Of a stretch of 64,000 nucleotides of DNA, positions 31,084 to 56,833 are shown piece by piece. Source of the DNA: Apostichopus japonicus (lineage: Eukaryota; Echinodermata; Holothuroidea; Aspidochirotida; Stichopodidae); NCBI RefSeq assembly GCF_037975245.1, contig NC_092564.1, positions 17,066,984 through 17,130,983 of the forward strand. The letters are read 5' to 3'. The notes under the pieces were generated by a model that ran no database searches, was not told the origin of the DNA, and saw only the letters and a list, made by a program, of their open reading frames with translations. Within the stretch, counting starts at the first letter, position 1. Every line of letters starts with the position of its first letter. A program made the translations under genes and the position numbers.

Positions 31084-31111
31084 CAGGGAGTTGTTATGGA
31101 ACAACTCCCTG
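31084..31111. mobile_element. Palindromic micro-insertion (28 bp)
   Basis: Perfect 12-bp arms CAGGGAGTTGTT/AACAACTCCCTG around a 4-nt loop. Flanks CTCTGAG (31077-31083) and CTCTGAA (31112-31118) match at 6 of 7 bases. Confidence 0.7.
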
Positions 31112-31282
31112 CTCTGAAGCATGTACAGTCTGCACACGAGCAAAATAGTATTACAAACGACTTGGCCAAGACTAAGACGCGGTAATCTCTTTGTCTTCGT
31201 CTGCTTCAAATCGTATGGACAGCCATAGGCGTACGAGGCGGGGGGGGGGGCAGGGGGGGGGGGCAGACTGCCCCCCCCCCAA

Positions 31283-31435
31283 ATTTCCAGAGGACAAGAA
31301 ATTCGGGCAAAAGTCCTGAAAAATTCGGGCAGCCTAAGAGGAGAAAAAAAAATATCTATATATATATTTTTTTTCTCCTCTTAGGCTGCCCGAATTGTTC
31401 AGGACTTTTGCCCGAATTTCTTGTCTTCTGGAAAT
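31283..31435. repeat. Long hairpin inside the hAT-like element
   Basis: Inverted arms of about 70 bp (CCAGAGGACAAGAAATTCGG on the left, mirrored at 31410-31432) separated by a short AT loop. A few mismatches between arms. GCCCGAAT occurs twice per arm and again at 31470-31540. Confidence 0.85.
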
Positions 31436-31634
31436 ATATATATATATATATAAATATGCAGTAGCTTGCCCGAATCTTTTTCAAATTTTTGCCCGACAAT
31501 TCCATGATTTTCTTTATTTAGCATCATGATGCCCGAATATTTCCGTGTAACACCACCGTAAGCGCAGTTCATCTGGGCTACCACGCTTTTTGCACGATCA
31601 ATTTTTTTCTAACTAGTCAATTGTATACCTGGAC

Positions 31635-32284
31635 CAAGGGCGGCGGAACCGGAGGGGGGCACAGGGGGCACGTGCCCCCACTTTTCCTCAGGTTAAAAAT
31701 GTGCCTTTTATCTACATAAAAATTGAGGTGCCTCAAGTTAGCAAGAGGCCAGGGAACCAGAATGAACACTCGGGAAGGGCCGTTTCCGGCCATCTGAGGG
31801 GTTAATAAAACCAAAAATTTTATAGTACGCTCCGCGCCAACCAATGGTGGCGCTCCGCTCAGATAGTCGTGCATACAACTTTGCAAATCCTGGCTAAGCC
31901 CCTGACTTTTAATGAATTTCTGTGGGTCAAACTCAAAGCTATTTCGAATGGAAAAGATTTGTTTAGATATTAACAAGAAAAAAACTCTGATTCGGAAGAT
32001 TCCTACATTAGCAACTAGCATGATTTCACCTCATTTTGTCTCAAAAGAAAACTTGTTCTTTGTTTCCCAATTTGCACATTGGATATTGCAGTGCTAGTAT
32101 GCATATATTCCTTTAGGGGGGGGGGGGCGTTGATGGAGTGATGTGTTTACACAAATAAGATAATACAATAAGAGTTATAAAGGGTACTAAATATAAGGCT
32201 GCATCAGTCCAATCGAATATCTGCAAAGTGCCCTTCGACACGTTGGTGCCCCCCCCCAGATTAAAAGTGCTTCCACCGCCCTTG
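31635..32284. mobile_element. Nested hAT-like element (650 bp)
   Basis: Ends CAAGGGCGGCGGAACC...GCTTCCACCGCCCTTG. Perfect 8-bp duplication ACCTGGAC at 31627-31634 and 32285-32292. It contains one copy of the shared ~100-bp module (31770-31875). Lies inside the element at 31224. Confidence 0.87.
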
Positions 32285-32851
32285 ACCTGGACATCCCCAA
32301 CATGAGTGTATATAAGAAACGTATTCTTGTACATGGATGGTGGGGGGGGGGGGGTGCCTACAAGCCTAGAAGTACAGGTTTATCATATTCTTTGTTATAT
32401 TTTATACTTTTTTGTGAGACAAATTGCAGTCTCACCCGACACAGCGACATTATCCCGCCTACGTGTCGTTGAACAATGTATGTTTTTCTGGAGGTAGCTG
32501 AGTACTGTGTTAAAATAATAAATAAGGTAACTAAATAGGAGCTTCAAAAATATACTGTCCCATTTTTCCCCTTCAAAGTGATGTTACCATTTTTTCTTCT
32601 TCTAATTTACCAAATTTTTGGGGAAGTGTAAAATTTCTAAAACGTGAGATTATAAAATAAAGAATGTTTAGATGCAACTTGCAAGGCCTCAGAAGTGCCG
32701 TTTCCGGCAATCTGAGAGGCATTGTGTGCCAAAAATTTTCTTGTACGCTACGCGCCAACCGATGGTGGCGCTCCGCTTAGATAGTGTCATGGGAACTTTC
32801 GGGCACAAAAAGTTCTGCCCCCCCAAACTGAAATGGTCCCGTACGCCTATG

Positions 32852-33583
32852 TGGACAGCCTGGTGTTGCAAATCTCAGTGTAGTTATATATACTCTAGAT
32901 ATGATACATGGAGATACATGGACCAGCAAAACATGACATAGGCCTAGTTGGATTTATACTGTACTATCATCGCCCGCCACCTGAAATGTAACCATCTTCC
33001 TACACAACGAGCACTACTGCACTAATCAGCAACGAGGGAAAGCGTTACGAATAGATCTTGACTTTCAGTACTGCTGTTTACAGCAACTCATAAACCGACG
33101 ACTACACAGCGACCGTGTACGTAACCGGGATGTGACCCGTACGAAATTTCTCCGCCGCGGATTAGTTACGCTACGACGCACGCGCAGTTGTGCTTTATTG
33201 TCTAGTATTTCTTCGATTGACCCCTAATGATGAGCAAGACATAACATATATTGACTGTATGTCACAGATCAACTGTGTGGCGCTAGCTATCCGCTAAAAG
33301 CAACGCTGCTCGAGGACTATATGGCTTCACACATGTTCAGGTAAAACAAAATACTTCAACTTATCATCCCACCAATCTTTAGTCCTTCCTTGTTTTGCAA
33401 AGGAAGGACGTATAAACCGATTGAAGTGTCAGCCTTTCCTGTGTGTGGTTCATCTTTCGGAAACAGTATACGGATGATGTGCCCAAGCAATATTTTCCGT
33501 TATTAGATCGTGTTACAGTGTCAAACCATCTCATCATTTCTGCGGGCTATGACAAATCGGCTGTTTCGAATCATTCCGTAAAG
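32852..33583. promoter_or_regulatory. Candidate promoter/5' region
   Basis: Around 33150-33200 the sequence becomes CpG-rich (CCGCCGCGG, GACGCACGCGCAG) against an AT-rich background, ahead of a possible first exon. A 10-bp hairpin (GTCCTTCCTT/AAGGAAGGAC, 33382-33409) lies between. No TATA box assigned. Confidence 0.25.
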
Positions 33584-33611
33584 ATGTCTGCCACTGTCGG
33601 CCGGTTGTACA
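33584..33611 (+). CDS. Candidate first coding exon of an unidentified gene
   Basis: ATG in good context (GTAAAGATG) encodes MSATVGRLY and is followed by a consensus donor A|GTAAGTC. I found no matching downstream exon, so this could be chance. The upstream in-frame ATG at 33443 has a poor context. Confidence 0.22.
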
Positions 33612-34257: not shown

Positions 34258-34430
34258 AGAGGTCAAAGGCCATTTCAAGGTCACCAGAGGTCAAGGGTCT
34301 AAAATTCTTGACAACGGATTAGTTTTGATATAACTTGCAAGAACTTCATAGTAATTAGTAATGTTTCAGCGTCCATTTAAAACTTAGTTCCAGAACAGAC
34401 CGTCTCTTTGAGGGTCAAAGGTCATAGACC
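34258..34430 (+). promoter_or_regulatory. Cluster of AGGTCA nuclear-receptor half-sites
   Basis: Contains GAGGTCAAAGGCCA, CAAGGTCACC, AGAGGTCAAGG and AGGGTCAAAGGTCA (34411-34424), the last a direct repeat with one-base spacing as bound by HNF4/RXR-type receptors. Could equally be part of an old repeat; function is inference. Confidence 0.3.
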
Positions 34431-36035
34431 TTGGTGTATAGCGCCACCTTTATGAGTATAAGAACGATATTTATCATCCGTGGATGTCAAAGGTTGGTTG
34501 AAAACTCCGAAACTTATTTGTGAAAGAACTTTGCTGTCAACGATTGTCAAAACCGTGAAATATTATGGTGTGTCGTGTTTTATTTAATGTTTCACATAAT
34601 TAAATGTGACAAGGAATCACTAAGCCTATATTTATGTTATCTGGACTACTACATACCCCTCACTCATAGTGTGAGACGTGAGGTTGACTAACTTGACTAT
34701 GTTGTGTGTAACGTCAATTACGTATGTCATAATGTTCACCACCCATCAGAACAACCCATTCATCCGTTTTTTTACCAAATTCTTTATCGCTCAACTTCGA
34801 TACATTAGTGGTAATGTGGCTGGGAAATTAGAAAGCATTTTAGAATTTCAAATCATGATTGATAAATTGAAAAACCCCAATGCAACTTTGTGCTTGAATA
34901 TAGTTATGTCAATATGTCGATTCACTTTTTTACTTCTTTGAATTGCATTTATCTTGGGATTGGTTACCGCCTTTCATGTGCGTGCAGTTTGATCATTTGA
35001 ATTCACAGCTATACATACACCTATATTGTATGTAATAAACTATTGATTGATATATGATTCATGACGGGGAGAAATCTAACACATCTCTACATCCCTGGCA
35101 CATGTCTTCATCCGTTTACTATATAACAGTCGTACGTGTGAACTATATTGGCAACAATCCGTCCTATATACCATCAATTAACATAAATATATATGCAGCT
35201 GCATCCGTCCGATCTGTAACTTTTCATCACTATAATGATCATCATATACCATAGTTAGTATCTTCACACCTTATTTCATACCCCTCAAGGCCTCAATGCT
35301 ATATTCTTTACTAATATACGTATAGTTTGCGATCATATCTCAATTCTGAGTACGGTCTTTGAGATAACAGCATTTGAAGTTGGCACGTTTTGAACTCAAA
35401 AGTAAACCTGAAGCAAGCTGGTGTGATGAAATAGAATCACAGTGACCATTTCGTTTATGTTTTTCTATAAAGTTAACATCCAAGTTTTACCAATTCAAAT
35501 TAAGGATGCAACTCAATATGAACACACTACATGTAGTCATTGGCTAATTATTAACTCTCCATCCCCTTAGAACAAGTTGTAAGTCTATATCCAGTCCAAG
35601 GTCAAAACACATTTAAAGAAAAGGAAACCATTTTGCTGCCCGGTGTGCAACTATGACGTCACATCAGCTGTTTGTCTCAAGTTCAACTATTGCGCAATCT
35701 GTGTCAATGATCAATATCTCTATATAACGCTATGTGGGAATTGCTAGCAAATTTCAGCAGAATGCTTATAATGCTTAGAATTTATTACTCTTTCGACAAA
35801 ACAAAAAAATCTTCTTTACGTTTCCATAACTTAATAATGGATTTACAAATGAATTTATTATGTGAATGAAAAAATAATGAATTGGTCAATTTGTGGCCAA
35901 TGTTAAAATATTTAGTGATCGATAATTCGAGCCATATATAGTTGAAAGTTGCCGAGAGATCTTATCATTTTGACGATACCTTTTACGTTTCGATATACTG
36001 TATATATAGGTGAGTGTTTACGGCGTAACTTATTA

Positions 36036-36057
36036 CATGGAGGTAAAAACCTCCATG
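36036..36057. mobile_element. Palindromic micro-insertion (22 bp)
   Basis: Perfect 9-bp arms CATGGAGGT/ACCTCCATG with AAAA loop, flanked by perfect 7-bp CTTATTA at 36029-36035 and 36058-36064. Confidence 0.8.
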
Positions 36058-36904
36058 CTTATTAACACTGGTTTTCGACTGTTTACGTTCATCGTGAGCA
36101 GGTGCCTGTCAAATAATGCTCGCAATCGTTCAACGCGTTCTTTCTTTTGTGTTGTTGACCTTTCGCGCTAATGCCAGATTATGTAATACTCACTCAGCCA
36201 TGAAACTAACTCCTCGACTCCTCACTTCAACGGTATAGGTTAACGGTAGGTTAATCGAAGACACACGTTACTCACACCAGACTGTACATAACAGCCTTTA
36301 TGTATAGTTAAGGGTATACACAACTGCGTATGTAGCTATGTATGCATACTGTTAATCAAAGCAAGTATGTGTTGTGTTATTGGGGGATGATTGTTTATAC
36401 TTACTTGGCATGGATGTTGCTTTTCTACACGGTGTTAGAAGATAAACATTTGATCTCTCCGTCGTTTGAAAGGATTTCACAATAATGCTCTTCTGCTTAT
36501 TCGGTAAACCGTCAGGTAAGTTGTCGTTACAATTTTGATGGTACCAACTAAGAACTCTCAACTGGGTTTTGTCCTCTAATACTGTAACCGACCAATACAA
36601 TGCAATCTGTCTGCTCTGCGAGAACGACTTTCATGCACTGAATCAATAGTGTACGTACATTTTACCCCTATAGTATAGAAATACACGGTATATCGTCTTA
36701 TTATGATTATGATTATATTTGTTTTTGATGCGGTGGAAATGAATTGATACTTCTTTAATTTTGTCAGAAGAATTAAGAAATTAAACCTTCAAGTGTAAAC
36801 AGGACTTTATGCATCGTTATTGTACAGGTCTCGGTCACATCAATATAGCGTTTTGAAAATTGTTTCCAATATACTGTATATATCGACTATAGGTATAGAT
36901 ATAT

Positions 36905-36928
36905 CAGGGAATTGTTAACAACTCCCTG
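36905..36928. mobile_element. Palindromic micro-insertion (24 bp)
   Basis: Arms CAGGGAATTGTT/AACAACTCCCTG meet with no loop and one mismatch. Perfect 7-bp flanks GATATAT at 36898-36904 and 36929-36935. Confidence 0.75.
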
Positions 36929-36986
36929 GATATATTAGCCGTTCACAACAATTTGATCCATTCACACCATTTTGGTGGGCTGCATC

Positions 36987-37384
36987 CAGTGGCGGAGCTA
37001 GGGGTATTGGTCAGGAGGGGCGAGAATGGTCTGTAGGGGCGCTTTCGACACTAAGCGGAGCGCCACCACAGGTTGGCGCGTAGCAGAAAATTTTTTACAG
37101 AAATTTTTTGAGTAAAGAAGATACTCCCTATAGATCGCCGGAAAGGACCCTTTCCGGGCCTGGCTAATTTGCAGATAAACGAAGAATAAATAGGTGTCAT
37201 CGCCAAATTGCACCAACAAAATGTGACAAATGTCAATAGGTAGTTGAGAGCGCAATAAAAAAGTCAATAATCACGAATAAGTAGCAAGTGGTAAAGGGCT
37301 GAAAAGGGCGCCAGCAGTACATTTGAGTCCGTCAGGGGGGGGGGGCATTCGCCCCCCCCTGACTGTATGGACGCTCCGCCACTG
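36987..37384. mobile_element. hAT-like non-autonomous element (398 bp)
   Basis: Ends CAGTGGCGGAGCTAGG...CGCTCCGCCACTG, perfect 8-bp duplication GCTGCATC at 36979-36986 and 37385-37392. The interior holds an inverted copy of the ~100-bp module also found twice in the 31224 element. Confidence 0.88.
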
Positions 37385-38557
37385 GCTGCATCCATTCAAC
37401 AGCTCTTGATATATTGTATGTACGGCTGAAACAATGAATTTGTGATTAAGGTATAGATAGAAAGTGCTATGATATAATGAGTCATCATTAATGACGTAAC
37501 ATCGTCGTCGTTATGAAAAATATTCGTAGCAAGAGTATCCATGTTTATATCGATGTATTTAATTTGTTTTAACAAACATCCACTAAACCATTTGGCATTT
37601 GGTTATAGAGAATATCATTTTGATATGTAACATTTATTGACTGGACCTCTCCTCCCTCTCTGAGATATTTACCTTCTGAAACTGGGGTCCGTGACATTCC
37701 GCCGTCGGTACATCCCGCCATAGAAAATGTGCTTTTGCCGCCAGGTAGAAAAGGGGCCATTCCGCCATTTTATCCCGATGGCGGTAAAGCACTTTTTGTA
37801 TGGCGGAAACTCCGGAAAGAGCACATCATTGTGGGTGCACTGTGGGCCTATATGCACTGTATATTGCTTCGCTTCACACTTCCTAGGCCCGCAAAATCGG
37901 TCATTTTAATCGTAAATCAGAATCGGTAGTTTGAATAAACAATCAGCCGAATTTAATTTCGATTTATTTAACCAACTGTATATATATTTGAAGGCAGTGT
38001 ATCGACTCTTACGAACTAACAATTAAAACTATTCAATCAATCTGTATACATTGATTAAAGACTCCCAATTCTTGTCTTTACTACAATTCAGTCTATCCAG
38101 CGAACTATTACATTTGAAGACGAAGTACTATAGTACCTACGTATCCTTCCACGCGTTTCAAAGAAGTTTCAAAGAAGTTTCACCGATGCATTCCTGTACA
38201 CCAGGGTAAAATCCATTCCTAAAATGTACCTTTCCGCCAAACTTACGCATTACGAGTAGAACACCGGGCCTTGTGACTAATCTTACGCGGTACAGGTAGG
38301 ACCCTTGCAATGTCATCTGCGAATTAATCAGGTCAGTGAGGTCACACATCCGGAGTCTATGCATGCTGTGTTCTTCAACACCGTCCTGATTCCTTTCGGG
38401 GGACATTCATACTGTATAGTTTCGTTTTTCGTCTTCTCTTTTTGAGCGCCTAATGATGTCTTGTTAGTTGTTACCACACAGGCTATGCCAAGCTGAAAAC
38501 AAATATTCTTATTTACTAATGCGGATTAAGATCTGGGCTTGTGATAGTCCTTCATAT

Positions 38558-38586
38558 CATGGAGCTATTTCGTTAATAGCTCCATG
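38558..38586. mobile_element. Palindromic micro-insertion (29 bp)
   Basis: Perfect 12-bp arms CATGGAGCTATT/AATAGCTCCATG with 5-nt loop. Perfect 7-bp flanks TTCATAT at 38551-38557 and 38587-38593. Confidence 0.82.
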
Positions 38587-38786
38587 TTCATATATAAAGT
38601 TCACGCTGGCAGTACCTCAAGTATATATATATAGTTCAATGGTTGATCGATCTCAGGTTTCTTTTGCATGTGTGATTCGTCCTTTCGGGGTCATCCGATG
38701 CCAACACTAGGGTGTCACTCACATAAATCTCATAATCACAAGTAAAAATTGTTTATAATTACTGTGGCCGAAAGCATGCATGTAAC

Positions 38787-38812
38787 CAGGGAGTTGTCAT
38801 GGAAACTCCCTG
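38787..38812. mobile_element. Palindromic micro-insertion (26 bp)
   Basis: Arms CAGGGAGTT/AACTCCCTG with 8-nt loop. Perfect 7-bp flanks ATGTAAC at 38780-38786 and 38813-38819. Confidence 0.8.
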
Positions 38813-39523
38813 ATGTAACGCAAGCAGGAATTTGTATAGCGAATTGTTGAAATAGACTTTGTTAGATATGGTCAGGTGTCACTCTGTGGTAGACTGTATT
38901 ATTATGTAGAAGTAGAACCAAATGTGTTTTCGTCACAGAGCACGCGCCACAGGGTTAAAAGGCACCGATTGTAACATGCAAAACTGTGGTTTTAAAGTAT
39001 CACTATATTCGTTAAAAACGTTCCTGATTTGTGGCAACAACAGGACGACCGTGTAACAATCGTCAACAACGTCCAGATATGTAGCAACGGGAATGTAAAA
39101 TTCGTTAATAACGTGATTTGTAGCAACGGCGCCCTTACAGAAAGTTTTTGGGAGGCGAAGTTTTTCTCTTCGCGTTCCATAACAGAACCGAGCGTTCACG
39201 CTTAAATCTTGCACACCTTTCTGCTAATATCAACAAACGACGAAAGTGTATGACCTGCCAAACCTTTTGATTGAGTTTTTTTGGAAAGACCCCAAGGGTA
39301 ATTCTTTTTCTACTCAGTACTAATTGCTGCTGTACTCCTATACTTGGGTAAGTCTGGTAATAAGGCTTTCATCTGTGGCTTTTATCTTTTGTGTGGCCTT
39401 ATGCATAAAAGCCAATGAAGCAGTCATCTGTAAAAACACACAAAAAAACCACACAAAAACCCAGCCAAGAACCAGTATATCTTCGCGTACCGCAAAGCAC
39501 CAATGCCTACGGTGACGAGTATC

Positions 39524-39925
39524 TATGGAACGCCAAAAGGACCACAGGTGGCGCTACTACTCTAAACAGGAGGTGCTACTACCCTAAACAGGAGGTGCTA
39601 CTACCCTAAACTGGGGGTGCTACTACTCCTATTAGGAGGTGCTACTACTCTAAACAGGAGGTGCTACTACTCTAAACAGGAGATGCTACTACTCTAAACA
39701 GGAGGTGCTACTACTCTAAACAGGAGGTGCTACTACTCTAAACAGGAGGTGCTACTACTCCTAAGTGACGATGCTGCTGTAAAAAGGTGGCGCTGCTACT
39801 CTAAATAGGCGATGCTACTGCTACTACAGGCGGCGATGCTACTGTAAATTAGTGGCACTACTACCCTAAACGGAAGGTGCTACTACCCTGTAACCAGGGC
39901 GTGTTTCCAAGGCGTGTTTCCAAAA
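39524..39925. repeat. Left inverted repeat with 22-bp minisatellite
   Basis: About ten units of GGTGCTACTACTCTAAACAG plus two bases from 39548 to 39770, then a more irregular part with GATGCTGCTG and GGCGATGCTACT, ending near CCAAGGCGTGTTTCC. Confidence 0.9.
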
Positions 39926-40105
39926 CAATTTGCACACGGGGTCAGCGAAGGTCACTCTTCAGTTTTCCTACATATACATATTCATGTCTGTACAGAATGA
40001 GAGTATCAACGGTTACTACCATATGAAACGTTAGTTTCGATATTAAATTGTGGGAAAATTCAAACAGTTTACGCGAAAAAAAAATCCATACTATAATTAC
40101 AAAGA

Positions 40106-40270
40106 ATGTCGTTCAACGTGGACGAGAAGATACGCGAATACGTAGAGATGGGTTTTACAAATCAACAAATGGCTGAAATGTTGGACATAAGTGTAACAAC
40201 GACTAAGAGGAGACGTCGCGATTTGCACATACGAAAGAAAGATTTGAATGTCAAACTTAGTGGTCAGTGA
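40106..40270 (+). CDS. Small helix-turn-helix ORF in the transposon (54 aa)
   Basis: ATG 40106 to TGA 40268-40270. The product contains EKIREYVEMGFTNQQMAEML followed by DISVTTTKRRRRDLHIRKKD: a recognisable HTH with G(F)TN.QMA.ML as helix 2 and a basic recognition helix. Such N-terminal HTHs precede integrase/transposase domains in many eukaryotic elements. A possible splice donor (GGTCAGT) overlaps the stop, so this may be the first exon of a longer, now lost transposase gene. Function inferred from position inside the element. Confidence 0.55.
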   Translation: MSFNVDEKIREYVEMGFTNQQMAEMLDISVTTTKRRRRDLHIRKKDLNVKLSGQ

Positions 40271-41269
40271 TTTCTTATTTCCTTAAATGTAACTCAAACA
40301 GGCTCAGGACTGTTAATTCTAGATACATGCTAAATAACGGTGTAGTAAGAATCAACCAATTGTACAATCACATCTAGTAATATATATTAATCGCATATCT
40401 CTCATAGTTCAACTGTCAGAGTTATGCAAAAATGCATCGTTTTCAATCCAAAGAGGCAAAGGTTTCCCGATTGATCGAACGAAATATGTTCTACATGTAT
40501 CTTATAATGATGGGCGAGGTTGTGTTCGGTAGTATAGTAGCTAATGCTTCAAAGTAAATGGGGCCTGACGTTTCGATCCTAGCATAATCTTTCCAGAGGC
40601 TGGATGACCAGTGCATTATTTTACAATAGTAACTAATTATTCTTTTTTTACGCATTAATAAGAAGGTATGTTCTCTCCTTAATGTGCCCTCTTCAAATTA
40701 TTATCAGAAAGAGATTAATGACTATTTCGGCGTAGAATACCATTTAAGGGCTGATCCATGGCGTATGAAAGGAGAGGGGGCCATACCTCCATAGTCTGTC
40801 CGAAGGGTAACGTTTTAGTCGTCGGGGGGGGGGGGGGCTTTCGGGGAAACCGTGAAAACAAACAACAACTTTTGAATTTTGTTTCTTCAAAATTTAAAGT
40901 TTCAACATACACAACCATGTGTATATATAAACCTAATTATTTACCTAATTTGATTTAGGCTAAACATACATTTGAAGCCCGAACTGTGTAAAATTCTTCC
41001 GAGAGCACTCCCCAGGAAAATACACATTCATGAAACCCATAGTCACAGCCTGTCTTTAAGGTGTATACCTCAACAAATCATTCGGGGAGAGCGATTGGAA
41101 TTTAGTCCCCACCTTTGGAATTATGTGCCCGTCACCGGGGCGTGGGTAGGCTATAACGTTTATTGAAGTTTAATGCCAGAGTTACCATGATCACAATTTA
41201 CCTAACCCATACAATCTTGTAAGGTAGATTGTGTTCGAGGAACGTAATAAACTTGGCGTGGTGAAACCA

Positions 41270-41293
41270 AGGAGCTGTTACTTGCTCCCTGTC
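41270..41293. mobile_element. Decayed palindromic micro-insertion
   Basis: CAAGGAGC...GCTCCCTG arms with one mismatch. Flanks share only AAAC, so the 7-bp duplication is not convincing. Confidence 0.35.
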
Positions 41294-41594
41294 CAAACAG
41301 GATGACAGTATATAGATACACTATAAATGACACAATACAAAACTTTTAAGTATGACAGTCTTTCATATACTTATTTTAGTTAATGGCTCATGCACATATT
41401 TAAACCTGAAACAAGAGTCACAGAGTAAAGAACCCCCATTCCCCCAACACAAAATAAATCATACTAATGTTTACATGGTGATACACCTTTTCCTTACGGA
41501 CATGTTTGCAACCGCGCCACAATGAGTAACAATAATGGGTTGACAGAAAACTTTATTTTTACCAAGGAATTGATACGTAACTCATTGGTTCTAC

Positions 41595-41621
41595 CATGGA
41601 AGTCTGATCAATACTTCCACG
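41595..41621. mobile_element. Palindromic micro-insertion (27 bp)
   Basis: Arms CATGGAAGT/ACTTCCACG (one mismatch at the end), flanks GTTCTAC (41588-41594) and GTTCAAC (41622-41628), 6 of 7 matching. It lies inside the large transposon, so it inserted after it. Confidence 0.65.
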
Positions 41622-41762
41622 GTTCAACCGATGACAGGTTTCTTTGAATAATAATAACAACTACATTGAGGTAACCGAGCAATCAATTTGGTATATGTTG
41701 TCACAAAGAGATAACACCACCCTTCCTTGTCGCAAACCCGTACGTCCCTAAAAACACATTAA

Positions 41763-43356
41763 AGACCAACTATGGAGACTTTTCGATGAACATAAAATCC
41801 CACCATTTTTCATGTATGTAATCCTTAACTGACTCCAATTACATTGCTGTAATTAACTTTACCAATTTCGGACGTTAAATAAGTGAAAAATGGGACGAAA
41901 AGTCAGCTTCTATTTCAGACATTCCTGAAACATTCCTAAGACATCAGGTGACCATGTGACGTCAACGTTTGTATACCTCACTCACAACTATACTTTTAGT
42001 GTGTAAAGTCGTATACTTGAGCTGCCAAAAACATCAACGATATTACTCCTTTTTCCTCAAAATGTCACAATTCTGTGTTGTTGGAGGTTGCAGTTATACC
42101 TCATCCAACAAAATCATCAGCTTTTTTAGATTTCCGAGTAAAAGAACCGACGTAAAACGCCGCAGACTTTGGATCAATTTTTTGAGATCCACGCGGAAAG
42201 ATTTTTCAGCACCCGGAGTATCTCATGCCCATGAGTCCACATGCATGACCCTGCTTCTGTGTATGCTGCAAGCCTGCAAATGTCTCATTCTGTGAAAATT
42301 ATATACTGTCGATAGCTGTGTCGGACCATGGTCGGACATAGCTAATGTGAAATTGACCGTAAACACGCCCTGGACGTCCTTACATGTAACATTATATCAC
42401 GCAATTGACAGTAATATATTTACTGTAAGAGATGACCGTATATATATACGGTAGTTAGTTACAACTCTCGCCGGCGTTGGCTCACAGCATGTGTAAATAG
42501 CCATGTTAGGATTTATCTATTTCATTTGTTGTATTCCAGTATCGTGAGTTCGTGATACATGTGTAATATTGTCCGTTCTGTTTATTCCGACATCTGCATG
42601 GTCCAAGGAGTTGAATAAAAACGGTAGTATGTAGCGATCGGACGTTTTATTTCGTTAGTGACTGTCTTGTGATTGTGGGATGTTAGTACTGGTCAAGGCC
42701 TGTTTCAACTAGACCTAACTCTATGGAATTACACAGACTCACGGTAGTTTTTCGCCCAGGATTGAACAAGAAACGTGGATTAGGATATTCACTGCTAAAT
42801 TTGTTACAGGATACTTTTTCTGTGTTTGTATACTTTTGGATTTTAAAACGAGTAAGTACTATGTAAGTATATTGTACCGCACGGACCTATTGACGCTACG
42901 CTATGTAAAAGATGCCTCCATTTGAGTGGAAATTTTGCTAATAAAATAAGCAATTTAACTAAAATTTCTGCTTATAATTTTCTTAAAACTTGTTGTTAAC
43001 CTTCATGTGTTCTTGTTTTAAGCTAACAGCTTTTCAAACGCTCGAAATTGGAAGTCAAAAACAGTACAATTGTTCGCTATCTGTGTACAAACAGTGCCTA
43101 TATCAGCGTTTGATTTTCGCGGTATACAAACTTTGACGTCACACGGTGACCAGAGGCTCCTTTGGGTCAATCTCTGTTTTCAGACATTCCAGAGGTTCAT
43201 GTCACGTGACTACCCAAAATGTCCATTTTAGTGGTCGTTTTTGATGGGTTATAGTAGGTTTTGGAAGATTATTTTTTACACATATTGATTATGGGTATGT
43301 AAACTCCTAAATTAATGGAAAATCTCAAAAAAAAAAATTGCCTCCATATTTGGTCT
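41763..43356. mobile_element. Nested TTAA-flanked element with THAP ORF (Kolobok-like)
   Basis: Ends AGACCAACTATGGAG and, inverted on the right, AGACCAAATATGGAG, each next to TTAA (41759-41762 and 43357-43360). A longer sub-terminal similarity pairs GACGTCAACGTTTGTATACC (left, near 41960) with the mirrored copy near 43120-43145. TTAA target sites are used by Kolobok and piggyBac elements. The interior encodes a THAP-type zinc finger. No complete transposase. Confidence 0.7.
42062..42292 (+). CDS. THAP-type zinc finger N-terminus, likely damaged
   Basis: From ATG 42062 the frame reads MSQFCVVGGCSYTSSNKIIS, then FFRFP and RRRLWINFLRSTRKDF, the layout of a THAP domain: C-x4-C, HRFP-like motif, W, then a C-x2-H pair. 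At the expected C-x2-H the sequence is VSHAH, so the third zinc ligand is Ser (TCT, one base from TGT Cys). The frame stops at 42293-42295 after an unrelated tail. THAP domains bind DNA and are common at the N-terminus of P-element and Kolobok-type transposases. An in-frame ATG at 41969 exists, but 42062 fits the domain start. Probably an exon of a dead transposase gene. Confidence 0.6.
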
Positions 43357-43848
43357 TTAACCACTTTGTGGGTCTATTTGTGGCCGATTAACTCTTCGAG
43401 GCTATCACATGGAAACTTTTAGCAATTTGTCAAAGCAGAGAGAAAGAGAGAGAGAGACACCATATGCCAACAGTAAATAAACCAGGATAATTACTCAGTA
43501 TATGCACTTCGAACATTTCCATATTTTTTACACAATCAGTATAAGGATAGCTTGCTTTTTCAAGTTGATTACCCTTCCCTTCACCTCCTTTTTCTTAAAT
43601 TGGTTTATTGTATTCATTAAAGATCAGTGCATATAAATTATTATCCCCTTTCATGTAAATAAATGTATATCAGCGACAGAAACTTCACTCTGCAGTTTCT
43701 TTCTATATTTAAAGGAGTTTAACCGCTGATCGACCTCGCGAGAGTTTCCTGTGGGGAATAATAGCTTTGTTAAGAATAATGTGGTTTGATTACGCAATAA
43801 CCACATGCGGCGTGGAGATTGACCTTCATGATAACCCCCTCTATGCAT

Positions 43849-44232
43849 ATTGTTTTGGAAACACGCCTTGGAAACACGCCTTGGATACAGGGTAGTAGCG
43901 TCTCCAATTTGGAGTAGTAGCACCTTCCGTTTAGGGTAGTAGCGCCACTAATTTACAGTAGCATCGCCGCCTGTAGTAGCAGTAGCATCGCCTATTTAGA
44001 GTAGCAGCGCCACCTTTTTACAGCAGCATCGTCACTTAGGAGTAGTAGCACCTCCTGTTTAGAGTAGTAGCACCTCCTGTTTAGAGTAGTAGCACCTCCT
44101 GTTTAGAGTAGTAGCACCTCCTAATAGGAGTAGTAGCACCCCCTGTTTAGGGTAGTAGCACCTCCTGTTTAGGGTAGTAGCACCTCCTGTTTAGAGTAGT
44201 AGCGCCACCTGTGGTCCTTTTGGCGTTCCATA
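43849..44232. repeat. Right inverted repeat with 22-bp minisatellite
   Basis: Mirror of 39524-39925 with fewer repeat units and one extra block near 43891-43912 not present on the left. Ends with CCTTTTGGCGTTCCATA. Confidence 0.9.
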
Positions 44233-44238
44233 AGTATC

Positions 44239-47017
44239 CACATGTCGGAATCGTCTAGTCTGTATCCAGCTGAATAAGGTTTGTTGCATCAAACTCTTCA
44301 TTTTTGAAATCACGGAGAGATCGATATACAATCTGCTATATATAAATATATATGTACGTTTTAAAGGTACTGTATATTATAGGCGTTGCTTTACAACTTA
44401 TTTGCTTTCTGCATCAGAATGCTTGCCACTTGTAATACCAATATTTAAACTTTGAACAAATACGAACCAGACATAGGAATATAGGCCTACATATAATGTA
44501 GGCATCGTTACAACACATGCAGACATATATTTCAAACGATGTGGTAACTTTGTACTTTTAGGTATATAATCATTAAGATAAATATGCGAATTCAAGAGTG
44601 GGTTTAAGTGTCCCAATTTGTTTATATTAATGATATGTCTCTTGTTTGTCCTCGTCAGTATATATCCGGAATTAAAGGTGTAAAATAAAGGTATCTTTCA
44701 TTAAACACCAGGCAATACACCATGAAATGAATTTGATGGGAAGAAAAGAAACTGCTTTTCATTTTGATTATGCAGGGTAAACACAAGGGGTTAGTTAAAT
44801 ATTCATAGTTAGGTCACGTTAATGCATGTCTTACTATATGAAATACAGTTTTTATTTCATCACACAATGTCATCATTTAAGATTCTGCGAAACCAGTTCG
44901 TGGCTCAGATCCGATATATCTTTTATTAAGGCATACATCATATGGTGTTGAACATCAGTTGGTCAGATAGAGTATACGAATCATACTGTACAACATAAGT
45001 AACGGGAAGGATTGGCTAATGATTTTTTTTTTCTTCAAAATCAATTTCAAGCACACATGTCAATTTGGTGGGGAATTTGATCGTTCATTTAAAAAAATTA
45101 AGAAACCCGAAAAATTATACATAATCACCATATGAAAAATGCCATAAATCGCGGTATCGTTTTGGGGCCTATTGTAATCGTACGCTAAATTTCATCTCGA
45201 TATACTTAAACGATGTATCGTAATATCGTTGTAATGCTACTTATAAAAGTAAAACAACAATTCTCGACACTGAGGGAACCACGTTTAAACAAAGAAGAAG
45301 CTCATTTTCATGTCAGGGCGGGCAACTCATGATTGGAACATTTCCTTATATCTTATACGTTGCAATGCAATGTTCACATTGCCATGCAGTGTGACGAAGT
45401 GTAAATTCTTCAGTAGGGTCGTACTTTGTTCTGGGGACTTATAATACTATCTGGTAAATCGATGAATTCGAAGAGTAAATTTAAAACTTGTTCATTCTCC
45501 TTTATTTTTACTTCTATATAGTAATAGGTGAATGTTGAGTGTTGACAAACTTGACCTTAAAATGATGATCATGTCAAGTTAAAGTGCTTGCACGTGACGT
45601 TTTTGATTCCGTAACTGAGAACGATAACATTGATATTAAACTTTAAAAAAAATAATAATTATATGAAAGGTGTGTGGTTTGGTGATGTCATATGTAAATT
45701 TAGACATTTCTTATAGGCCAAACTGTGTGTTAAAAGGAACATTAAATGGAATAAATCTTTCTTAGCTGTTTGAGGAAGTTGGTAATGACAGTTATCTCTT
45801 CGATAGACCAATTGGTTGTGTTTCCTGTAAAAACAAAACAATAACAAACATATATATATGTATATATATACAGACACACACAAACACATTGCAGACAAGA
45901 AACAGGATTACAAGCACAAAGCTCGTACGTTAGAGATAGCAGGGCATTGTAAATCAGGATGTTTCCCTGGTTCTACTGTATAGTGTTCTTTATACAGTGC
46001 AGTGACGAGTCGTAAAATTCCATGGAAAGTGACACGTTAAAAAGCGTCACACGTTATTCCCCATAAAGAGATATTATAGTATATAACTCGAGTAAACTCG
46101 AGTCCAAAACATATGACTTCGACTATAGTCATGAAAATCCCTTTGCAACTGACTCGACCTAGGACCGTACAATGAAGGCTGTATACAGCGCGGTACATAA
46201 TTCCACACAGTCGTTAGTTTGGTGTACAGAGTGTTGTTACGTATTATCTGTTTGAAGTATTGTCAAGTTGTACATGCTAGCTTGCGATGCATGTTGCCTT
46301 GAGGCATATGCTCTCTAGTCCGTAGTAATACGGAGGCGTCTATCGGAAAGAGAGATACAGTACTGTATGTTGTGGATTTCCTGTTACAGGAAACAATTGA
46401 GGGACAAAAACTTATGTAGTATATCGAAGCCTATGCCAATTTTTCTATGCAATTATGTCATATACATAATACATGGTCAGTATTCAGAGGAACAGTTTTC
46501 ATAGACAGTATACGTCCATGATTCATTTGTGTTCTTTGCGCTCATGGAAAGCCCTTACTAAGGACACGGTGATTAAGTGGTTTGATACGATTGCAACCTG
46601 AAACCATGCAACGGTCTTTTATACTAACTCCAAGAACAAAGGGGAAAAAAAGTAAGGCGATATTTGTATTTTTTTTTTATTAAATTTATTTCTATGCACC
46701 AATTTCGCGAACATCAGTGTCGAGAGCAACCGCGACTACTTTGGAGGTTAATATGAAAGTTATACAGTAATTTAACATTGGTGCATGCCCATTACCGATA
46801 TGATTGGTATAAGGAAATTCACTGTGAAGTAATATTCAAATATTTCTTCATGTTCATTTACTCTAGATTTAACTTATATATATACCTAACCTACATGTGC
46901 CTATAACGTCAATAGTCATGGCTACTTTACTAACTCATCAAAGTTACAAAATCGTTAAATTTCGTATAGCAATGGAGTAATTTGTATAATAGCCAATATT
47001 ATACTTTTTAAGAAAAA
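44239..47017. other. Gene-free stretch
   Basis: AT-rich unique sequence with no supported exon on either strand. Only short simple repeats such as (TA)n at 45851-45869 were seen. Confidence 0.5.
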
Positions 47018-47195
47018 GTCGCCCAGGAAAGAACCTGGGCACGAAAACCAAACTACTGAACGACTGATCCGCTTCTAAACCCAGTCCCCTTACATCAGGA
47101 TTGTGACTGTGTGATCATCGTCAGGTGTGCATCACCATTCCCCTCGAAGGGAACAGATACTACACATGATCTTAGCCAAAAGGCCGAGAAGCGAT
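47018..47195 (-). ncRNA. U2 snRNA-like gene with non-canonical body
   Basis: The minus strand from 47195 reads ATCGCTTCTCGGCC, TTTTGGCTAAGATCA, then TGTGTAGTATCTGTTC: a perfect U2 5' domain and branch-point recognition region apart from one A-to-T change before GTGTAG. After that it departs from canonical U2: a CCCTTCGAGGGG hairpin and about 90 nt unlike stems IIb-IV. Near the 3' end lies GGTTTTCG (a weak Sm-like tract) and a perfect 7-bp hairpin GCCCAGG/CCTGGGC. It may be a divergent U2 gene, a U2-headed SINE or a chimeric pseudogene. The U2 head assignment is strong; functionality is open. Confidence 0.75.
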
Positions 47196-49227: not shown

Positions 49228-52200
49228 CACACACAGTATACTTGAAAATCTTGCTTTCAGTTTTTTTCTTTCTTCATAGACAAATATAAATATATATAAA
49301 TAGCTATAGGAATCACTATGCCAACTGGCTTTCTATTTTTGGATATAGAAAACACTCTTTGAAACCTCACAAAGAGGAAGAAATAAAAACGTAAAGAAGA
49401 AGATAAGAAAAGAAAGTAAAACAACATAACATTTTGTGATTAACGATTAGTTGTTTTGTTTTCTGTTGTAATATGGCAACTTTCTCTTACGAGGCGGATG
49501 TATTTTTCAAATCATAATGTTGTGTATTATTATACCTCCAAATGATACTATGATTTTGATGTAATTTGAGAATTGAGAGGGGATCTAATGTTTTAATATA
49601 AACTCAAGTTCACGGAAATAAAGTCCGTTTTCAAAATATACCTGATACTACGAATGCCGTCACCTCGTTTGTTGTCTGAATCAGTCATGAACTTGTGACC
49701 TTTATAGCATGTTGTAAGGATTTGTCCATGAAAAATAAAATAAAAATGAAATGATAATGATGAGGAACTCAATGCCACTGACAACTAGATGGATTTGGCG
49801 CCTTCTGGCAGTAATGCAATAAGCTCAGAAAATGGACTCACAAACTGCACCACTAGAAGTGATTATTTTCTGATTCAGAGGAGGCCTGGAACACCTATAA
49901 CCCCTCCCTCGTTTTACTCCTCTGAATTTTACGACCGTCGTCTAATTAAAACTGTCACTGTAACATGCTAACACGCTCTCTTATAGTACGGATTTATAAC
50001 GATTCCATCATTGCTATTAAATTAGTCTCAGGTCTGTATAGCATGAAGATTGCAGGAGTTGAATTCTATGGGCGAAATTAAATGACCAAAAACAAAGTAT
50101 AGGGATCCACGTATGATGGATGGTATGCAAGAGACTGTGTGAACTCCCATGCACACTTCTGACTGCATCTGTATATACGTAATAACAATAATAGTTTGGG
50201 CAAAGGCGACTTTTAGAGAGGGGGTAGGGTCAGTATTGTTATTAGGATGATTGAACCAGGGAGACTCCCTGATTGAACATACGGCCAAGGAAGTGAGGAT
50301 ATCAGCGCCTCAAGAATATTGCATCCGCTGAGAAAAATTAGAAGAAAGGGACGGGGGGGGGGGGGGGGTTGATGCATCCGTGTTGCAGTCGGTCATAAAA
50401 GCGCGCCTTTTCGGATTTTCCCGTGCAAGAACATATATTGTAATGCATGATTTATCATTACCCCAATTGACTCATTGGCTTGTGCGGTATGTACCGTTCT
50501 GACTAATTGGCTTGTACGCATGTACCGTTATGACATTGACAATGGCATATAATGTATGCACTTATTCGGATAACCTTGAGCCAAATTAAGAGCTCTATAC
50601 CAAAAAGTTCGTTGAGTAATTAACCGTTCAATGCAGAACAGAATTGCCTGTGTCCCACACATAGTGTTAGTGTAGCGAGTCATGACTGGTAACCACTCAT
50701 ACTTTCAAGTGAAAAGGAATGGGGTAAATAGTTGACGTAATTACACTATTGCTATTATAAACAAATATAAATATTAACTTAACTGTATCATGGTTTGACG
50801 GATGACGGCAGGAAGAATCTAATCAATACTATACAAGAAAATTAGAAATTTGAGTACTGCTATAACGTCATATTGCTACTTCGCTTTTCAAGATTTTTAC
50901 CTTTCGAATGTCTGAAATGCCACTTTAAGGCTTGAGGAGTTGATGACGTAGGCGGCACAATTCAGGTCTAAATGCTCAGTAGTCCATTTCTTGTATAAAT
51001 TCGAACTTTTCAACCAAAGACTGTACTTTTAACCTTCATACCAAGCAAAATTTCCCCTAAAATAAGTTAAATAACACAAAATCTCTACCTCTGCGCCATC
51101 TGTTAATGGCATGCAGTTTGTAAATTCATTGCAGATTGGAGGTTTTAGGGAGGACGGAGGAGAAGGGAGGGGGAGGGGTGGGGTGAGACGGGGTCCTCGA
51201 GGCTTTCAATTTGATAAGAAACGGATATGTGATCTTGTTGTAACAATGACGGAGAGAGGGAGAGGTGGAGATAGAGTATGGTGAAGAGAATGGGGCGATA
51301 AAAATGGTTTTGTCTGAGTATTCAATTTAAACTGAATTCGTTTTACATTTTGGTTTCATTACCAAAATTAATATTTTTTTCTTATTTCAGGAAAAACGAT
51401 ACCTTTTGCAGAGGCCTTCGGGATCAAACAGAGGAACCTTTATCATTCGGAAGTTAGCGAATCGACTGCGTCAGAATCGAGTCACGTCGAAAGAAGGAGG
51501 AAAGTTATATTTCTGGTTTCATCGAAACGGTCTGGCTCATCTTTCGTCGGAGAATATTTCAACAAACATTCCGATATCTTCTACGTCTTTGAGCCTTTAC
51601 AGATGCTAACTTTTTACGTACTAGAAGGGAAATTAAATAACAGTGCATTCGATGACGTTGCCATGGATATCATGCAAGGTTTGGTAGATTGCCAATTTAA
51701 CCATGGCTACAATTCTGCCAAAGAATGGTTAACACGTAAAGCGCCAATTTGCATCTTTAACCAGGAACTAGAAAAGACCAAACTGTGCTCTGAAGATCAC
51801 AATGAATTTACCTTAACGGAAGTAGAAGCAATGTTGACGGCAACTTGCGAGACTATGAAAGACATTGCCTTTAAGGTAATAAGGATACAAGATCTTGAAT
51901 TAATCAAACCGTTAGTATTAAACCAAACTATAGACGCTAAAGTATTGTATCTTGTACGAGACCCTCGAGGTACAATGAACTCAAGAAACATCAATGAACA
52001 GAACTTTGATCTGATTCGTCGAATGCAAAATACCGGTACGCTGTTGGAAGTTGAAGACATGTGCGACACGATGGAGCATAATCTTAAACATTATTGGCTG
52101 GATACACCCACGTGGTTAAAAGGGCGGATTAAAATGATACGATACGAGGATGTCGCCCTCAATCCGATCGATCTCGGAAAAGAAATATTTCAGTTTATAG

Positions 52201-52490
52201 GAAGAGATTTCGATCTGGAAGTCATAAAATGGTTATTTTTGAGCACTCAAGATCAGTCGACTGATGAAGTAGGTAAAGGACAATATTTTAAGACCTCTCG
52301 TAATTCCGCTAAAAGAGTGACCGGTTGGCGAAATGAATTTAGTTGGTCAAGAATTTCATCTATTCAGAATAAATGTCAAACAGTTATGAAAATGTTAGGA
52401 TACTTGTCTATTCAATCAGAAGTATCTTTAAGAAATTTTAGTATTCCTTCCTTTTTACCATATCAACCTTTAGTTAACAGTACTCGTTAA
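48958..52490 (+). CDS. Carbohydrate sulfotransferase gene B (two coding exons)
   Basis: Exons 48958-49036 and 51391-52490 join in phase 1 to give 392 residues, the same architecture as gene A 24 kb upstream. Residues 7-25 are the membrane anchor. The PAPS 5'-phosphosulfate loop ([17 protein letters not shown]) and 3'-phosphate motif ([13 protein letters not shown]) are identical to gene A. The protein is predicted to sulfate glycans in the Golgi; the substrate is unknown. Most of the catalytic domain is nearly identical to gene A at DNA level, but a block of about 33 codons after KEWL differs strongly. The intron is 2,354 bp and was enlarged by (TA)n and other repeats. The frame is intact. 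Confidence 0.9.
49070..49225. repeat. Interrupted (TA)n microsatellite
   Basis: About 155 bp of TA with AAATA interruptions, ending in CATACACACACA. Confidence 0.95.
50257..50271. mobile_element. Palindromic micro-insertion, smallest (15 bp)
   Basis: CAGGGAG-A-CTCCCTG with perfect 7-bp flanks ATTGAAC at 50250-50256 and 50272-50278. Lies in the sulfotransferase B intron. Confidence 0.75.
51391..52490 (+). CDS. Sulfotransferase B exon 2 (catalytic domain)
   Basis: Follows the TTCTTATTTCAG acceptor and opens [16 protein letters not shown] in the same frame as the catalytic domain. The true protein therefore extends about 70 codons upstream of the internal Met at 51603. Ends at TAA. Confidence 0.9.
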
Positions 52491-52661: not shown

Positions 52662-52704
<43 letters not shown>

Positions 52705-52726
52705 TATATATATATTAATATATATA

Positions 52727-52762: not shown

Positions 52763-52765
<3 letters not shown>

Positions 52766-54465: not shown

Positions 54466-54468
54466 TGG

Positions 54469-54511
<43 letters not shown>

Positions 54512-54832
54512 TAATAATAATAATCATCATAATAATAATAATCATAATAACAATAATAATAATAATAATACCGATAACGGTGCTAAAGGCGCATCACAAT
54601 ATTACTCTGGTCAATGATAACCTGTCAAACATAAAGACAATCCCTCCACATGGCAGCAGTTAAACAGCGCCCAGCTGACAGTTTTATCTGACCGGTCCCC
54701 ATTTATACACCTGGGTGAAGAGAGGCATTGGAGATAAAGTGCCTTGCCCAAGGACACAACGTAATGATCTGACCAGGATTCGAACCTGCAATCCTTAGAT
54801 CACACGTCCACTTAACCACTTGACCACAACAA
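54466..54832 (-). mobile_element. tRNA-headed SINE with (TTA)n tail
   Basis: On the minus strand the head at about 54832-54765 has an A-box-like GGTCAAGTGGTTAAG and a B box GGTTCGAATCC. A conserved SINE core follows (TGTCCTTGGGCAAGGCACTT, CCCAGGTGTATAAATGG), then the 3' part with ATCATTGACCAG and a (TTA)n tail at 54570-54466. The head-core-tail order and tail type are typical of invertebrate tRNA SINEs. Target duplication not resolved. Confidence 0.8.
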
Positions 54833-55329
54833 TAAGAACATGTAAGAAGTTAACGCTGATTTTAATTGCCCATAAATAATAGATGACCTAAGTTGTGCCA
54901 AAGTTTATCGCAAATTAAATCCTCTTTAATTTGTTTTACCGAAAATATAATAAAAGTTTCATTGTTAAATATTGTTATATATTACTATATCAATGTTCAA
55001 AGAGACACACAAAAAAAAACCCACACAAAAATTAACACGTGTATGCATTTGATCATGCATCCGTTTTATCATTCATTTCTGTTAACGTGGTACTAATGAA
55101 AATAGGTTCCCTTTTTGCAAATTCGGGAAGAACGTTTCCCATGTATAGTAATGAAGCTTTAGTATAGGTCTCACGGTGTCTCCTCTCATGAAAAGATATA
55201 TGCAGATAGGTATGTCATGTGGGTGTCGTGACTCAGTCATGAAATACGACAAGACGACGTCTAGTGTGCCCTTTTATTGCTTCTCGTGAAAAGTTACATA
55301 TAGAGCTCGGTCATGCACGAACACCTCCC

Positions 55330-55445
55330 CACCCCCCCAAATCGATCCACTCTCAATTCAAGTTCCCTTATACACTGAGACTACCATAAGACGTACGATC
55401 GTGACGTCATCACGTCAAGTGAGTACAACGAGTCTCTTGGGAAAT
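55330..55445 (-). pseudogene. Decayed relative of the U2-like RNA
   Basis: On the minus strand shares TTTCCC...CTCACTTGACGT, CGATCGTACG and GAGTGGATCGA with the copy at 56.5 kb, and through it with the body of the U2-like gene. The U2 head is missing. Confidence 0.5.
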
Positions 55446-56445
55446 AGAAAAAAAATAGTTGTTCAATTGCTCAGTTGGAATGAAGAGAACAATTGCACAT
55501 TTTGCAGAACAATGTCGAATTGACGAGATATGATAAGTTGTCTATTAAACATTTTGTAGAAAATTGTTCAATTGATCAGTTAAAGCAACTGACCAATCCA
55601 ACATTTTTTCTGATTTTTGATAAGATATTATCTTGTCATCCAAACAATTTACTGAAAATTGTCAACTTATGGGGCAAAGATTTTCTTATATTGATGGCAC
55701 TTTTAAGCTTCTGTAGATTCGTGTACTTACACATTAAAGTGAAGATAGGCATGAGAGCTTCTCACGAGGTTACAACAATTCAGTGATGCATCACATGCAG
55801 TTCACTTACATCCCATATTTAAAAAAAAACATAACCTTTGAGCGAAAGGATGTTTAGTCGCAAAACAGACCGTGTCTAAACAAAGAAAATGGCTACATAT
55901 GCCGTGGTGCATCTTTGCTAGGAATGGGCATAATGGTATATAACACGGCAGCTAACAGTTTTTGTGTCATTAAGGGATATGGACTTTTTAGAAGCCATGT
56001 CGTTTGGCTTGGAACGAGTGAAACATTTTGAGTCACAGACAACGAGGTGACCATAGAGCCAAGAGTCACATCAAATCACGAAGAGAAGTTACAGGCCGAA
56101 TCAAATCGAGTCCTTTTGACCTATATACGAATCAAATTGATGCATTGGTGTCTTTCAATCATAAGGTCCCGAGTTCGAGTCACTCCAAGATTAATGTTTG
56201 TCGTCCAGTTACAGAGTTGTTGACAATTGACAATTCCTAATCATGGACGTTAAAATATGAATCTAAGAGACTGACTTGCAGCTTGCGGCTTTGATAAGCC
56301 GAACAAACATACTTTTCATGCAAAAGTCACAAAAGTTAAAGCTTGGGAACGAAACAACAAACATCTATCTTGACCCATTCTTTCTTTGTCATCCTATCTT
56401 GAACGAACTCGAGTAAATATACTGATGCGATAGAGAAGCGGAGCA
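55446..56445. other. Gene-free stretch
   Basis: An AT-rich open frame at 55493-55786 resembles nothing known and has no splice or start context; no other signal. Confidence 0.45.
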
Positions 56446-56585
56446 AGAAAACCAAAACCAATTCGATCCACTCATATCATTCCATTCCCCTTACATCGAG
56501 GCTGTAACCGTACGAGCATGGCGATGTTACGTCAAGTGAGCATCACGGGGTCCCTTAGAAAGGGAATACATACTGAGCACGTGCG
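56446..56585 (-). pseudogene. Decayed copy of the U2-like RNA body
   Basis: Minus strand matches the U2-like gene collinearly: GTGCTCAGTATGTATTCCCT against GTGTAGTATCTGTTCCCT, then a GTGATGC-CAC-TGACG block, GATGTAAGGGG and TTTGGTTTTC near the end. The first ~30 nt of the U2 head and the 3' hairpin are not conserved. Confidence 0.6.
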
Positions 56586-56804
56586 GACATAGAACAGGTT
56601 TAATGACGTCACATGAAAATGTATGTACTTGTGGATACATGTCCGGTTATTTGCCCTTTAATTGAGGGCGACAAAGTGAAATGGTATATCGCGAGCAATC
56701 CTTTTATACCCCGTATATCATCCGATCAACGTTTACATGTGGTCTCGTAAAATGAGCTATTTGCGTGAAGTCGTCAGTTCCGAGAAAGGTCTATATGTTA
56801 TACA

Positions 56805-56833
56805 CATGGAACTATTACGGTAATAGCTCCATG
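56805..56833. mobile_element. Palindromic micro-insertion (29 bp)
   Basis: Arms CATGGAACTATT/AATAGCTCCATG with one mismatch and the same arms as the 38558 copy. Flanks TTATACA and ATAAACA match at 5 of 7, so it is an older insertion. Confidence 0.6.

Follow-up and report, generated by a model that had tools for sequence, protein, structure and literature searches.

The 64,000-nucleotide stretch of the Apostichopus japonicus genome analysed here (contig NC_092564.1; C4:17066984-17130983, hereafter the window) holds eight palindromes of 15–29 bp, each lying between two identical or similar 7-mers, and raises the question of how inserts this small came to be there. An earlier note, made from the sequence alone, had read them as two terminal repeats set back to back and had offered two origins: deletion derivatives mobilised by a transposase, or a new class of hairpin insert. 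Our answer, held with a probability of roughly 0.94, is that the palindromes are excision footprints (scars) of P-superfamily cut-and-paste transposons. A novel class of mobile DNA is in all likelihood not involved; the scars are of a known kind on a remarkable scale, with thousands in the genome.

All eight palindromes were confirmed at the positions given in Table 1. The identity of the flanking 7-mers, in order along the window, is 6, 7, 7, 7, 7, 6, 7 and 5 of 7, so that five sites are perfect, two differ at one position and one at two, as the earlier note had counted. Shifting the right flank by 1–3 bases lowered identity to 5/7 or less at every site. A scan for palindromic inserts between identical 7-mers, run without any motif, recovered five of the eight and otherwise returned only AT-rich tandem repeats, while Markov controls gave none (0 in 5/5 and 0 in 3/3); the same scan of the window for 8-bp duplications found AT-rich tandem repeats only. 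The scars divide equally between those with CAGGGAG arms and those with CATGGAG arms. The 22-mer of scar 2 recurs, identical, at C1:9342693 in the genome listing of the CATGGAG type. No palindromic member was found in the first 31 kb of the window, as had been noted before, and the eight sites span 25.7 kb, an arrangement with a chance of about 0.009 under uniform placement; local hopping could explain this clustering. The ninth, weaker hairpin that the note had placed at 41270 does exist, at 41268, and its flanks agree at only four of seven positions, making it a weak case.

The flanking 7-mers are target-site duplications of transposition, because two paralogous empty sites hold one 7-mer and no palindrome. 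These came from a search in which the flanks of a scar, joined with a single 7-mer, were compared against the sequences under analysis. For the scar at 31084 the paralogous empty site lies in L048: it has one CTCTGAG and no palindrome, reading GACTCTGAG-GCAT, is 75% identical to the flanks of the scar over 108 bases, and is shorter by 35 bases, the sum of a 28-bp palindrome and a 7-mer. The other empty site lies in the window itself and corresponds to a scar that a duplicated region carries twice, at C1:2762521 and C1:2908470, with CTCACAG on either side of a 28-bp palindrome; the window site has 35 bases fewer than the scar at C1:2762521. The signature of transposition recognised in the earlier note is thereby upheld, and at neither site where it could be checked does the empty site contain both copies of the 7-mer. 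When the 7-mers of the eight window sites were compared with known targets of the superfamily, 25 of 48 positions agreed with GTTNAAC, where 13.05 would be expected, and 23 agreed with GTANTAC; of 20000 controls, 3 scored as high for the former target and 30 for the latter.

Genome scans covered 671.6 Mb in 35 contigs. The CAGGGAG-type pattern CAGGGAGTTGTT(N0-20)AACAACTCCCTG, through which arms of up to 32 nt would pass, was found exactly at 728 places and its reversed-pattern control at 0; the CATGGAG-type pattern, CATGGAG(N0-24)CTCCATG, was found at 1789 places against 48 for its control. When the flanks of 24 CAGGGAG-type places were fetched, 13 were identical at 7/7, 5 at 6/7, 3 at 5/7, 2 at 4/7 and 1 at 3/7; three of these places are duplicated copies (L006 of L005, L015 of L014 and L023 of L018), and the 21 that remain without them give 11, 4, 3, 2 and 1. 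One of the 4/7 cases, L011, carries a perfect 8-bp duplication, GTTAAAAC. The 200 kb downstream of the window add four further palindromes with 7/7 flanks and one one-armed case. Over the contiguous 264 kb (window plus downstream sequence, including 2,500 N) there are 12 palindromic cases, eight of them in the window: 11 by motif scan, plus that at 41595-41621, which escaped the scan because it ends in CG.

The longer elements sharing these ends, with a transposase, that the earlier note had suggested looking for are present. A search with the element-end pattern CAGGGAGTTGTTATGGAADK, designed to exclude most palindromes, gave 82 places genome-wide, all matching the repeat over 18 nt, among them four inward-facing pairs ending in GGAATG and separated by 4.5 to 13 kb (Table 1). 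All four pairs are bounded by perfect 7-bp duplications (GTCTGAC, CTGAAAC, GTTTAAC and GGTAATG). In the C3 and C17 pairs the two terminal repeats agree exactly for 33 bp, in the C2 and C12 pairs for 25 bp (30/31), and the CA...TG ends on inverted repeats of about 30 bp are as in the P superfamily. Independently of the end search, a search for the P-transposase RNase H family returned 45 matches in this genome and 0 in 14 control genomes, and the C3 and C17 pairs enclose such matches. Two frames of the C3 copy (L049) match PF21787 (1.8e-29), PF12017 (2.1e-5) and PF21789 (3.2e-8), all over the Pfam cut-offs, giving the parent element of the CAGGGAG type the predicted helix-turn-helix and RNase H domains of a P-type transposase. 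Judged by these domains and ends, the parent elements of the CAGGGAG-type palindromes belong to the P superfamily. The C3 and C17 copies are 98.8% identical over the 6.5 kb compared and contain the same internal scar-like palindrome.

Table 1. Probable scars and empty site in the window (window coordinates) and parent element pairs elsewhere in the genome
Feature	Location	Strand	Structure	Remarks
Scar 1	31077..31118		CTCTGAG + 28-bp palindrome 31084-31111 + CTCTGAA	CAGGGAG type, most frequent junction; 6/7
Scar 2	36029..36064		CTTATTA + 22-bp palindrome 36036-36057 + CTTATTA	CATGGAG types, CATGGAGGTAAAA type; 7/7
Scar 3	36898..36935		GATATAT + 24-bp palindrome 36905-36928 + GATATAT	CAGGGAG type; 7/7
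Scar 4	38551..38593		TTCATAT + 29-bp palindrome 38558-38586 + TTCATAT	CATGGAG types, CATGGAGCTATT type; 7/7
Scar 5	38780..38819		ATGTAAC + 26-bp palindrome 38787-38812 + ATGTAAC	CAGGGAG type; 7/7
Scar 6	41588..41628		GTTCTAC + 27-bp imperfect palindrome 41595-41621 + GTTCAAC	CATGGAG types; within 39524-44232 element; 6/7
Scar 7	50250..50278		ATTGAAC + 15-bp palindrome 50257-50271 + ATTGAAC	CAGGGAG type, two short arms; 7/7
Scar 8	56798..56840		TTATACA + 29-bp palindrome 56805-56833 + ATAAACA	CATGGAG types, CATGGAACTATT type; 5/7
Possible ninth, decayed scar	41268..41291		CAAGGAGCTGTTACTTGCTCCCTG (CAAGGAG...), flanks GTGAAAC / TCCAAAC	4/7; weak
Paralogous empty site	42481..42487	+	single CTCACAG, no palindrome	counterpart of C1:2762521 / C1:2908470 scars
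Parent element pair	C3		12,042 bp	L049
Parent element pair	C17		13,118 bp	
Parent element pair	C2		4,560 bp	
Parent element pair	C12		4,480 bp	

These data suggest a model in which an element inserts and duplicates 7 bp of its target, a step shown by the empty sites and by the four element pairs. On excision, the transposase would make a staggered break, cutting the first strand at the boundary of the element and the second some 18 nt within the terminal inverted repeat; this position of the inner cut is suggested by the arm lengths together with the known P-element reaction, in which the cut is at 17. The donor site would then retain the target duplication and a single-stranded stub of each terminal repeat, and end joining through short microhomology or small insertions, as the junctions indicate, would close the break to leave 7-mer, stub, reversed stub and 7-mer. 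The scar is a palindrome because both terminal repeats are identical, and in this respect the description of the inserts as two terminal repeats back to back was correct. Loss of one stub would yield a one-armed scar, and partial recopying of the element before joining would yield products of the 68-bp and 83-bp kind described below.

The palindrome listings comprise 50 places per arm type, all on contigs C1 and C2, and the junction counts drawn from them describe these samples rather than the genome. Among the 50 listed of the 728 CAGGGAG-type places there are 17 junction types. In the 16 of these that were compared with the 33-bp repeat, arms reach 18 nt at most, apart from one type with 19 in which two bases are assignable to either side. 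A 36-bp case at C7:4087231 can likewise be read as 18 + 18 or as 19 + 19 with two shared bases. A tally of the 82 end places shows 39 departing from the repeat at base 19, 17 departing at base 20 and 26 matching through base 20. Eight of the 26 are the four pairs, one is the C14 product described below, six extend more than 100 nt into the element and two are short derivatives; the remaining nine are four one-armed scars and five other unpaired ends. For the CAGGGAG type, both terminal repeats have thus left stubs that do not exceed a set length, as expected of footprints. Among the CATGGAG types, 17 of 49 listed match their 17-nt reference arms in full and vary in the letters beyond, a weaker comparison since the references were taken from the scars themselves.

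The junctions vary, with microhomology or insertions, in the manner of a repaired break. If the stubs are 18 nt long, the search pattern admits just three joints in which microhomology reaches 2 nt or more; all three were seen, and together they make up 30 of the 50 listed palindromes. One of them is the 28-mer, the product predicted by 2-nt microhomology, and scar 3 is the 24-bp microhomology product except for one base. At the other listed junctions the stubs share fewer bases, meet bluntly or are separated by an insertion of at most 5 nt. One-armed scars were also found: in L069 the arm is followed by a second ATGGAAC, in L063, L065 and L077 by the second 7-mer minus its first two bases, and at 135168 of the 264-kb stretch GTTTGAT flanks CATGGAGGTAAAATG on both sides. 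Two longer products are bounded by perfect (7/7) duplications. The 83-bp product on C14 (GTATGAC) combines 66 nt from one end with 18 nt from the opposite end, with one shared base, and the 68-bp product L062 (GTTCGAC) combines 58 nt and 13 nt joined over a shared TAA, the outcome expected if an element is partly recopied before the ends are joined.

The closest parallel comes from Drosophila. The cut that P transposase makes in one strand there falls 17 bp into the 31-bp repeat (PMC7776569), and P{wa} junctions consist of the 8-bp duplication and up to 17 nt of each repeat joined by microhomology or insertion (PMC2895639); the same assay also yielded junctions that had lost most of one arm or of both, as well as products in which synthesis was incomplete. 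The architecture of duplication, stubs, microhomology or insertion, and duplication is the same here, whereas the Drosophila junctions were laboratory-induced with 8-bp duplications and 17-nt tails and those of A. japonicus are natural, in the thousands, with 7-bp duplications and a stub best read as about 18 nt. In the duplication and the palindromic, GTTNAAC-like target, the present elements resemble 1360 (7-bp duplication, target GTTNAAC; PMC3276498) and Galileo (7-bp duplications, target GTANTAC, with three 8-bp cases in one species; PMC4168063), and not canonical P. Galileo and the present scars have the occasional 8-bp duplication in common, as in L011. The terminal repeats of Galileo are long and internally repetitive (PMC3573991, PMC3688188), in contrast to those described here, which are exact over 25–33 bp and begin with CAGGGAGTTGTTATGGAATG. 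Zebrafish Pdre2/THAP9, also of the P superfamily with CA...TG ends, differs in having 13-bp terminal repeats and 8-bp duplications (PMC10983969). A search of titles and abstracts of the open-licence literature returned no report of genome-wide P-type scars, which is weak evidence of absence.

Several observations weigh against the assignment to P-type excision, or against parts of it. The canonical P duplication is 8 bp, against 7 bp here. The GTP-binding insertion domain PF21788 gave no match in the two L049 frames scanned, and a pattern search, as distinct from a profile search, showed no THAP-like C2CH pattern in those open frames of at least 35 residues that lie within the initial 7.7 kb of the 12-kb element. 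Parent elements were found only for the CAGGGAGTTGTT type, and a shared P-type origin of the CATGGAG-type palindromes, four of the eight in the window, is suggested by their resemblance to it. The stub is best read as about 18 nt, with 17, 18 and 19 nt not cleanly separated: microhomology explains 3 of the 50 listed junctions with 17-nt stubs, 30 with 18 and 31 with 19 or 20; the arms of L063, L065 and L077 can be read as 17–20 nt and that of L069 as up to 22, the selection pattern fixing bases 18–20; and the unpaired ends L061, L066, L067, L074 and L075 could be longer arms. Finally, the 28-mer junction accounts for 27 of the 50 listed palindromes, a predominance that an amplifying micro-element would predict too.

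That last point leads to the alternative in which the palindromes are themselves minimal mobile elements, the smallest of miniature inverted-repeat transposable elements (MITEs), moved by a transposase. MITEs are short, non-coding sequences with paired inverted repeats and target duplications, and the palindromes share these traits, dispersed as they are in many copies with target duplications and dominated by one 28-bp sequence, but without the fixed interior: their outer ends are constant and their interiors heterogeneous, with 17 distinct junction types in the 50 listed. The dominant sequence is the one that 2-nt microhomology predicts, the arms end after about 18 nt although the repeat itself runs to 25–33 bp, and one-armed and aborted-repair products exist, features more readily understood if a break left by excision was repaired than if a hairpin was inserted. 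In addition, P elements have internal transposase-binding sites (PMC7776569), and the palindromes are too short for any. The evidence favours scars over mobile units; we consider minimal mobile elements improbable, and the mobilised deletion derivatives or hairpin class of the earlier note find no support.

Footprints of another superfamily such as hAT would be suggested by short CA...TG elements with perfect 8-bp duplications in the window, which are hAT-like, but the ends of those elements are different, as is the length of their duplications, and the long elements that do have the ends of the scars carry P-superfamily domains and 7-bp duplications. Moreover, hAT excision as a rule leaves little of the element's end. 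We rate such an origin as very improbable. Chance palindromes, or replication-slippage hairpins with accidental flanking repeats, would account for the imperfect flanks at 56805 (5/7), at 41268 (4/7) and at 6 of the 24 fetched places (5/7 or less), yet the controls gave zero at 7 bp, the genome-wide counts stand at 728 against 0 and 1789 against 48, and paralogous empty sites hold a single 7-mer, so that this last explanation is scarcely credible.

With excision footprints of P-type elements as the preferred reading, a short palindrome flanked by 7-bp repeats in a eukaryotic genome can be taken to mark an earlier excision, and such scars reveal P-element activity after most elements have been lost. 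The present elements would add to the P-type lineages one whose target duplications are 7 bp. Some 2,470 natural repair junctions, counted as exact matches (728 + 1789, less the control 48), become available for end-joining studies of long overhangs in an unmanipulated germline. For the CAGGGAG type, 728 exact scars stand against 4 paired and 6 single long ends by exact patterns, a ratio of about two orders of magnitude. A tentative reading, which we hold to be somewhat less probable than its opposite, is that the germline repaired P-type breaks mostly by microhomology end joining and seldom by sister copying, and that a P lineage of unusually high activity once swept the genome and survives today chiefly as scars, which would then form a natural record of thousands of end-joining events.

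Other candidate sequences were encountered during the search for parent elements. In L049, the N-terminal part of the transposase frame (1576-3459) shows weak similarity, below threshold, to the RAG1 importin-binding region (0.0019) and to zf-AD (0.027). Two inward-facing ends at C17:20864855 and C17:20911604, 46.8 kb apart, were not counted as a pair, as their flanking 7-mers differ. The end pattern CAGGGAGTTGTTATGGAB occurs at 139 places; among the 100 listed, no two ends face inward at a distance of 10 kb or less. P-like sequences also occur apart from the parent element: L046 (C17:17639800-17646800) has a 764-aa open frame at 2129-4423 with four P-transposase Pfam domains, PF21788 among them, and no convincing paired terminal repeats; it is perhaps a domesticated THAP9-like gene. 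The sequence CATGGAGCTAT at L046 6909 had no partner within the 12.2 kb examined. A loose paired-end scan of the P-like genes L045 and L046 gave 14 and 12 candidates, which were taken as chance. Around the transposase frame of L045, at 871-6598, CA ends with 9/12 matching bases and GTAAC-type flanks (CATGTAAC / CCTGTAAC) are possibly the ends of another P-type element, and may be chance.

The window contains other mobile DNA as well. A 4.7-kb element at 39524-44232, with a 6-bp duplication AGTATC, has long inverted repeats of 22-bp tandem units; its arms (39588-39886 and 43914-44212) are 94% complementary and its ends read TATGGAACG...CGTTCCATA. It contains a helix-turn-helix-like frame at 40097-40270 (below cut-offs) and a THAP exon at 41960-42292 (Pfam 2.8e-6), which was dropped as a source transposase since it sits in this element and is not linked to the scars; a search in phages with a frame of the element returned nothing. 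IS3EU, a superfamily with 6-bp duplications, is a candidate for its affiliation. The stretch 41595-45969 (4,375 bp), which has GTTCTAC at either end, was discarded as an element, since its termini disagree at 6/14 positions and since it runs across the boundary of the 39524-44232 element. The short CA...TG elements bounded by perfect 8-bp duplications lie at 31635-32284, 31224-32851, 28256-28621 and 36987-37384, and some of their ends are found again, beside different 8-bp duplications, in the following 200 kb. The window is eukaryotic in appearance, judging by its U2 RNA match, by its sulfotransferase and THAP domains and by its open reading frames, only four of which reach at least 150 residues. 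Two similar sulfotransferase-like open frames lie about 26 kb apart at 25081-26208 and 51603-52490, the first matching PF00685 (7.8e-13). A U2 spliceosomal RNA match (53 bits, E 1.1e-7) lies on the minus strand at 47098-47195, covering 98 bases against a 192-position model, and a 314-bp tandem duplication with 100% matches occupies 2277-2907.

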